Positions 6,169 through 33,015 of a stretch of 33,015 bases of DNA are shown piece after piece. Each line of letters starts with the position of its first letter. Positions within the stretch are counted from its first letter, which is position 1. The DNA is from Kiritimatiellia bacterium (lineage in GTDB: Bacteria; Verrucomicrobiota; Kiritimatiellia; RFP12; UBA1067). Position numbers and translations under genes: made by a program. The stretch lies in contig JAQUEX010000014.1 in assembly GCA_028684935.1 (NCBI GenBank), positions 1-33,015 of the forward strand, read 5' to 3'. The notes beneath the pieces were generated by a model that was not told the DNA's origin, searched no databases, and saw only the letters and a program-made list of their open reading frames with translations.

Positions 6169-6220
6169 AACGCCTATCGTGTCTAACGAATCAACCAACA
6201 CAATCAATAACAAATTGTTT

Positions 6221-6326
6221 CTCACACGAAGGCGCGAAGGGCACGAAGGTGAATGGTAGATCATGCCCCCCTTTGTGTCCCTTGTGCCTTTGTGCGAGAT
6301 GAAATTGGGTTGCGGGCTCGCCCGCA
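6221..6326. repeat. composite inverted word-repeat module R1 (copy a)
   Basis: cacgaaggcgcgaagggcacgaagg ... cctttgtgtcccttgtgcctttgtgcgag followed by tgggttgcgggctcgcccgc; related in reverse orientation to 31222-31327. Confidence 0.8.
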
Positions 6327-31164: not shown

Positions 31165-31221
31165 TATGTGGCTGAAATAACGTGCCCCTCCCGTTTGTCT
31201 GATGCCCGTATATAGTCTAAC

Positions 31222-31327
31222 GCGGGCGAAGCCCGCAACCCAAGATTCTCACCACGAAGCCTCGAAGGACACGAAGAAGGGGCAAGTCATAAAAAAAATT
31301 CGTGCTCATCTTACCTTCGTGGTGCAA
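31222..31327. repeat. composite inverted word-repeat module R1 (copy b)
   Basis: gcgggcgaagcccgcaacccaagattctcaccacgaagcctcgaaggacacgaag ... ttaccttcgtggtg. Confidence 0.8.
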
Positions 31328-31382
31328 CAACTTTTTTTTGTTGTGTTTGTCGGTAGGCGCATGGCAGTTCTGTTGGGGTCCG

Positions 31383-31420
31383 TGATTCGTAATCGTAATC
31401 TTGCTCGTAATCATAATCTT
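31383..31420. repeat. hexamer word array R6 (copy b, inside left end of element)
   Basis: tgattcgtaatcgtaatcttgctcgtaatcataatctt. Confidence 0.75.
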
Positions 31421-31454
31421 GAATGTGGCACGCACGAGCTATTACACTGTCATC

Positions 31455-31690
31455 ATGAACGGGCTATTCGACCATGAGAAGTTGACCGTCTATCAGGATT
31501 CGATCCGTTTTGTGGTGTGGGCGGGTGAACTCTTGGAAACACTTCCAAAGAGTCTGGCGGCCTACGACCAGTTGGATAGGGCTTCGACGTCGATTCCCTT
31601 AAATTGGGCTTGATCCGCAGCACGTCCGCTGATCGTATCCATGTGGAACGGGCCGAATATGAGACCGACGACCGGCGGTTAGCGGATTAG
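31455..31690 (+). pseudogene. four helix bundle protein (S23/IVP-like), internally deleted and frameshifted
   Basis: N-part MNGLFDHEKLTVYQDSIRFVVWAGELLETLPKSLAAYDQLDRASTSIPLN then stop; a C-terminal-like segment GLIRSTSADRIHVERAEYETDDRRLAD continues in another frame to the TAG at 31688. Confidence 0.75.
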
Positions 31691-31715
31691 GATTACGATT
31701 AAGATTACGATTAAG
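31684..31715. repeat. hexamer word array R6 (copy c, reverse orientation, inside right end of element)
   Basis: ggattaggattacgattaagattacgattaag. Confidence 0.75.
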
Positions 31716-31778
31716 CAGGGTATCCACCAACAGAACTGCCATGCGCCCTTTGTCGGTTCGTAAGGCACTAACCATTTT

Positions 31779-31840
31779 CTCTGTGCCTCCGTGTCTCTGT
31801 GGTGAAATTGATTAAACCACAGAGACACGGAGGCACAGAG
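31779..31840. repeat. R2 module (copy b): perfect 25-bp inverted repeat
   Basis: ctctgtgcctccgtgtctctgtggt (31779-31803) / accacagagacacggaggcacagag (31816-31840), followed by gttttttt. Confidence 0.9.
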
Positions 31841-31955
31841 GTTTTTTTGATGCCCCACCCTTCCCCTTTGTGCGTGGTAAAAGAACTTGTTTTTTATTGC
31901 TGGTGTTGGTTCCTAAGGCACTAAGAACTTTTCGGTAGTGGTATTATTCCCTCGA

Positions 31956-32809: not shown

Positions 32810-32967
32810 AAAGGGTTACCCCCTCACGCCGGGAGGGACGAGCGTCCGCTCGTCCAGGGCAAGCAGACGCTTGCCCCTCCCGTGTGTCAAAGGGTTACCC
32901 CCTCACGCCGGGAGGGACGAGCGTCCGCTCGTCCAGGGCAAGCAGACGCTTGCCCCTCCCGTGTGTC
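32810..32967. repeat. two perfect tandem copies of a 79-bp palindromic unit
   Basis: aaagggttaccccctcacgccgggagggacgagcgtccgctcgtccagggcaagcagacgcttgcccctcccgtgtgtc at 32810-32888 and 32889-32967. Confidence 0.95.
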
Positions 32968-33015
32968 CTCGTTATGTGTCATATCCGTGGGGCTTCTCGC
33001 GCCAGATGCAGGCGA

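Follow-up and report, generated by a model that had tools for sequence, protein, structure and literature searches.

rRNA intervening sequences were first described about three decades ago, and to our knowledge no function has been found for S23 proteins since then. Avd, the accessory protein of diversity-generating retroelements, is a four-helix bundle related to S23. The 23S rRNA intervening sequence (IVS) of Coxiella measures 428 nt, its 28-bp stem closes a loop that contains an S23 ORF, and tandem GACAGAT heptamers lie upstream of this ORF; the S23 protein of Xanthomonas forms a homopentamer of four-helix bundles (PMC4990558). The same paper cites two mobility hypotheses, and IVS mobility, present or past, has had the standing of a hypothesis only (Burgin 1990; Ralph and McClelland 1993, cited therein). 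Within the open literature, which most subscription journals stand outside, we found no paper placing S23 between inverted arrays, in elements with terminal inverted repeats (TIRs) or as the passenger of an insertion sequence (IS).

Here we analysed a window of 33,015 nucleotides, positions 1 to 33,015 of contig JAQUEX010000014.1 of a Kiritimatiellia bacterium (GCA_028684935.1). Near its end lies a small element with a decayed S23 gene. It is very probably a deletion derivative of a non-autonomous ISKra4-family element of the MITE/transporter-IS type, most likely moved in trans, with a captured S23 cassette inside.

Structure, copies and empty site of the window element

The element is 394 bp long (31355-31748) and has 22-bp inverted ends and a 9-bp target-site duplication (TSD). 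The left TSD, TTTGTCGGT, read directly from the sequence, occupies 31346-31354 and occurs as a single copy at the empty site described below; comparison with that site delimits the right TSD at 31749-31757. The complete end, GGGCGCATGGCAGTTCTGTTGG, is found at 31355-31376 on the forward strand, where the outermost base is A instead of G, and at 31727-31748 on the reverse strand. Inverted-repeat comparison placed a left hexamer array, (TAATCN)n, at 31390-31419 (forward), and its inverted counterpart, (GATTAN)n, lies at 31685-31713 (reverse), overlapping the S23 stop codon; the two arrays are 90% complementary over 29 nt. Between them, on the forward strand, is the remnant of a gene for an S23 (23S_rRNA_IVP) four-helix-bundle protein (31455-31690, start ATG at 31455), identified by its PF05635 match and by comparison with an intact copy, L101. 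The remnant scores 26.5 bits against PF05635 (cut-off 33.8) and 23 bits against TIGR02436, also under the cut-off, and differs from L101 by an internal deletion of ~172 bp and a frameshift. The direct repeat, inverted ends, oppositely oriented arrays and decayed S23/IVP-like gene thus lie where the preliminary description had put them. Its "21-bp perfect" ends hold for the arms at 31356-31376 and 31727-31747, whose 21 nt are 100% complementary, but fall one base short of the complete end, in which the outermost left base is mismatched. Its span of 31346-31757 matches the element plus both duplications, the start at 31346 belonging to the left TSD and not to the element itself.

The element has a GGQ release-factor-like ORF on one side and a HAD-type ORF on the other, both named from inspection of their translations. 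It is inserted in an older dispersed repeat (31215-31929) that measures ~310 bp when empty, as in copy L341. This repeat, also present at 6199-6325, consists of 8-bp-period hairpins (CACGAAG.., CTCYGTGN) and has many copies in relatives. We considered whether the surrounding CACGAAG/CTCCGTG repeat is a further S23 cassette and rejected this, as such arrays occur at none of the sampled S23 loci but at two ParE-type control loci. A direct repeat of ~75 bp (gggttaccccctcacgccgggagggacgagcgtccgctcgtcc...) is present in tandem at 32810-32970, upstream of the HAD-like gene. The RNA fold of the intact element has a z-score of -5.9, as expected given the inverted ends, and a search of Rfam returned no match.

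In the host assembly (G000), a metagenome bin of 3.8 Mb in 430 contigs that is 84% complete, the end sequence has 99 matches with at most 3 mismatches, compared to 0 for the reversed control, and the element sequence itself has 86. The end was found in 12 of the 95 genomes searched (the host included), which are spread across its genus, family and order. Many host copies are at contig ends, so the element family is a probable cause of breaks in the assembly. In 8 of the 31 paired copies the 9 bp adjoining the two ends are identical, and in 12 they are alike at 7 or more of 9 positions, compared to 0 of 930 when left and right flanks were cross-paired. The remaining 19 fall below 7/9; the count missed two exact TSDs, at L092 (gcggccctg) and L168 (gtgatgggt). 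Among the 31 copies with both ends, no exact abutting repeats of 5, 6 or 10-12 bp were seen. An empty site was identified in a related genome of the same genus (G001:C151), where the dispersed repeat carries a single TTTGTCGGT and no insert; the joined flanks of the window element align with it over ~309 bp, straight through the junction. This site is paralogous; the orthologous intergenic region of G001 has neither the dispersed repeat nor the element.

ISKra4-type elements with matching ends and S23 as probable cargo

Two autonomous elements have ends identical to the 22-bp end. L097 (G001; 2000 bp) encodes a transposase of 528 aa and L098 (G028; 1936 bp) one of 436 aa, and each also has a DUF6788 ORF. 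The L097 transposase matches the NCBIfam ISKra4 model, NF033572, with 208.3 bits (cut-off 205), and that of L098 reaches 176.4 bits, under the cut-off. L097 is flanked by the 9-bp TSD CATCAGGAA. The transposase of a third autonomous element, L129 (= L118; G007), is 79% identical; the three elements measure 1.9-2.0 kb. L129 has the end variant GGGCGCATGGCAGTTCTGATGAGG (CTGATGA type) and the 9-bp TSD TGCAAAAGA, and its end variant also bounds S23 elements of G060 and G069. The duplication length of 9 bp is common to L097, L118 and the S23 elements. An ISKra4-type transposase was not found in the host's own 84% complete assembly; it occurs in the same-genus genome G001. From the shared ends and duplication length, we infer that the window element is moved by an ISKra4 transposase in trans, which would most likely act on the 22-bp ends and insert the element with a 9-bp stagger. 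In G028, the autonomous copy (L098 1-2900; G028:C260) occupies the tip of a perfect inverted repeat, ctttgctttcccg / cgggaaagcaaag, and is not flanked by a duplication, as though it had inserted into a hairpin loop.

The intact element L101 (G001) is 560 bp long and carries a full S23 ORF of 135 aa (PF05635 70.4 bits, cut-off 33.8; TIGR02436 66.8 bits). Pieces of S23 were detected in 25 of the 30 non-autonomous paired copies, 24 by protein and 1 by DNA; the short copies are therefore internal-deletion derivatives of an S23-carrying founder. Of the five copies without S23, one measures 220 bp and has other content, and the rest are short, at 87-116 bp. Between genomes, the S23 genes of these elements have a dN/dS of ~0.13-0.22 at dS 0.2-0.8, substitution ratios that show purifying selection. 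Copies within G001 differ at 0 synonymous and up to 6 non-synonymous positions, a pattern that would be expected of drifting recent copies of a constrained lineage. Clean 9-bp TSDs are also found at copies that have no intact S23 gene, so S23 is not needed in cis. It is for this one reason, the clean TSDs of the shorter copies, that we call S23 a passenger; it would be part of a hairpin cassette captured between ISKra4-type ends, and it may still act as a helper in trans. Among solved structures, 2gsc and 2rld resemble the S23 protein. In one G060 element (L107 650-1227), S23 is itself interrupted by a further insert with another array type (CAGAAGTCAGAATACAGG), so that the elements are nested.

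The preliminary description had proposed a small TIR- and TSD-bounded unit that is mobilised in trans and carries the S23-like protein either as cargo or as a mobility factor, and had suggested looking for other copies with matching 8-10-bp duplications, intact copies of about 600 bp and empty sites in sister strains. The end matches in the host genome, the duplications, the 560-bp L101, the G001:C151 site and the ISKra4 partners all agree with the cargo version of this proposal, in which movement in trans is the inferred part. It could have failed on a lack of further copies, on flanks without matching duplications or on S23 genes that all lack these ends; the genomes instead hold such copies, such flanks and S23 genes between such ends.

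In a strict test, 4 of 75 named S23 loci proved to be enclosed by ISKra4-like ends with a TSD matching at 7/9 or better (null 0/600); the end variants GGGCGCATATGACCTCC and GGGCGCAAGGCGGCTC occur there besides the window type. L165 and L168 are weaker cases, judged by eye. On the S23 tree, in which many forks are open, the end label needs 4 changes and supported branches force at least 2 of them, which disfavours a single capture of S23 by ISKra4 ends. The cassette would be an older mobile unit, probably captured more than once by ISKra4-like ends. At a locus of a Chlamydiae MAG (L206, ~1365-2060), S23 lies within a long unrelated inverted repeat, GGAAACTAGAACGAATTTTTGAATTTTTCTCAA, possibly a capture by another element, with no clear duplication.

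Inverted arrays and S23 cassettes without IS ends

Most PF05635 genes of the host genome have no ISKra4 ends, and several of them are flanked by inverted short arrays built from other units. One, on contig C64, has 96-nt arms that are 94% complementary and built of TTACAGG/TTACACG units; in G003 the C64 site is occupied by a different hairpin array without S23. We scored array pairing across S23 genes by simple alignment thresholds. Among 73 relatives found by protein similarity, a sample close to the query, 67 reach a left-right score of at least 15 in inverted orientation, 20 in direct orientation and 4 with reversed sequence. Because this sample is so close and its members have the TAATC unit in common, we turned to 70 S23 genes from across the phylum, of which 52 reach a score of 13 in inverted orientation, 10 in direct orientation and 4 reversed. 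Inverted arrays were found at 0 of 28 ParE control genes, a control that represents one gene family. In one genome of genus g57, an 85-bp dispersed/tandem repeat adjoins the S23 gene (G197:C3:38-223) and is multi-copy.

The arrays are matched across each gene. A left flank pairs with its own right flank at a median score of 15.5, compared to 8.5 with foreign flanks (0 of 2000 permutations as high), and the own right flank ranks first among 69 in 36 cases. The unit is 6-8 bp long and varies from locus to locus, yet matches across the gene. A period of 7 is seen at 37 of the 45 heptamer-type loci, and the TAATC type has one of 6 (or 12). Read from the outside in, left arms are rich in G at 41 of the 45 heptamer-type loci and at 11 of 11 loci on plasmids, but rich in C at 56 of 67 TAATC loci. 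Together, period, composition and own-flank pairing indicate that the unit is locus-specific and that the match between the arms is kept. TAATC-type S23 cassettes without ISKra4 ends occur in other bacteria as well. We rejected an assignment of the arrays to the ISKra4 element, since the autonomous copies have no arrays and S23 loci without IS ends do have them. The hexamer arrays are part of the S23 cassette, not of the IS/TIR element. In this cassette an S23 ORF occupies the loop of a hairpin whose stem is made of inverted short-repeat arrays.

On plasmids of Cyanobacteria, Gemmatimonadota, Alphaproteobacteria and Bacteroidota, inverted arms were found at 11 of 12 S23 genes. Filled and empty plasmid sites were compared by separate flank alignments. 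Between conserved neighbours at seven sites on cyanobacterial plasmids, an array-S23-array cassette that has no IS ends occurs in some plasmids and is missing from others. On Trichormus variabilis plasmid C the insert is 423 bp long with a 5-bp duplication, GTAAT, and its ends are the arrays; the plasmids of Nostoc linckia, Nostoc sp. PCC 7120 and others used for comparison are 98-99% identical. Several empty plasmids are near-identical to the filled flanks, with the neighbouring genes 13 bp apart. The further sites are Anabaena 90 (cas6/cas4, filled) versus Dolichospermum, Nostoc punctiforme plasmids 1 and 2, Picosynechococcus 7003 (cas10/cmr3) versus 7002, Aulosira versus Microchaete, and Nostoc edaphicum versus Calothrix. 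At most of these, 9-32 bp (273 bp in Anabaena) replace the insert with no clean duplication, and the Trichormus site is the one TIR-less site with a clean TSD. Two of the cassettes lie within plasmid CRISPR-Cas operons (L371 583-951, cas6/cas4; L381 583-939, cas10/cmr3). These presence/absence patterns support the 1993 idea of mobile S23 elements. In genomes of a presumably Akkermansia-like genus, one species has arrays without S23 and another a decayed S23.

Alternative readings and relation to known systems

The frequency of array-flanked S23 genes without IS ends (52 of 70 phylum loci versus 0 of 28 controls), the stronger pairing of arrays in cis than across loci, the 11 of 12 plasmid loci and the seven cyanobacterial sites, the cleanest with the GTAAT duplication and arrays as its very ends, would fit a mobile unit that is the S23 cassette itself. 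Such a cassette would have its own insertion mode, with S23 aiding mobility, e.g. by binding hairpin RNA or ssDNA, and with the ISKra4-like ends being incidental. In the window family, however, the 9-bp TSD adjoins the ISKra4-type ends and not the arrays, and partner transposases exist, whereas a clean TSD comes from one TIR-less site only. We also know of no catalytic activity of S23, and consider this reading doubtful. It seems quite unlikely that inverted arrays and S23 form a stationary regulatory or accessory module that is recombined and lost rather than transposed, with the empty sites being deletions or replacements. The 9-32 bp replacements at several empty sites point in that direction, as do the Akkermansia-like arrays without S23 in one genome and the decayed S23 in another, but at independent sites the edges of the insert are also those of the arrays, and several empty plasmids are nearly identical to the filled flanks, down to neighbour genes 13 bp apart.

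Repeats and chimeric joins in metagenome bins can mimic TIR elements, and many copies do lie at contig ends. However, the ends, interior and 9-bp duplications recur in several independent bins and the empty site is in another genome; end counts, TSD statistics and this site rule out chance, and we give an assembly artefact practically no credence. A non-autonomous ISKra4-family element with a captured S23 cassette accordingly remains our preferred reading of the window element. More broadly, and only tentatively, S23 with matched inverted arrays could represent widespread tiny mobile elements (~0.42-0.7 kb seen) with the arrays as ends and S23 as the sole protein aiding their spread, of which rRNA IVSs and copies with ISKra4 ends would be special cases.

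The S23 gene described here belongs to a transposing unit for which the ends, the duplications and an empty site are known and a candidate transposase can be named. Its position inside locus-specific, mutually matched inverted arrays that are present or absent as a block offers a testable handle on protein recognition and element spread. Like ISKra4 insertion sequences and their MITE/transporter-IS derivatives, the window element has the inverted ends and the 9-bp duplications of elements that encode an NF033572 transposase, and like these derivatives it is non-autonomous, multi-copy and internally deleted. Unlike them, its interior is an S23 gene with hexamer arrays rather than a deleted transposase. 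As in the S23-encoding 23S rRNA IVSs of Leptospira and Coxiella, an S23 ORF sits in the loop of a complementary-end stem, here enclosed by complementary arrays and the TIRs. In contrast to these IVSs, the window element is outside any 23S rRNA gene, has IS ends and a TSD, and its stem is made of short-unit arrays; purifying selection on S23 between genomes, as judged from dN/dS, further sets the window family apart from them.
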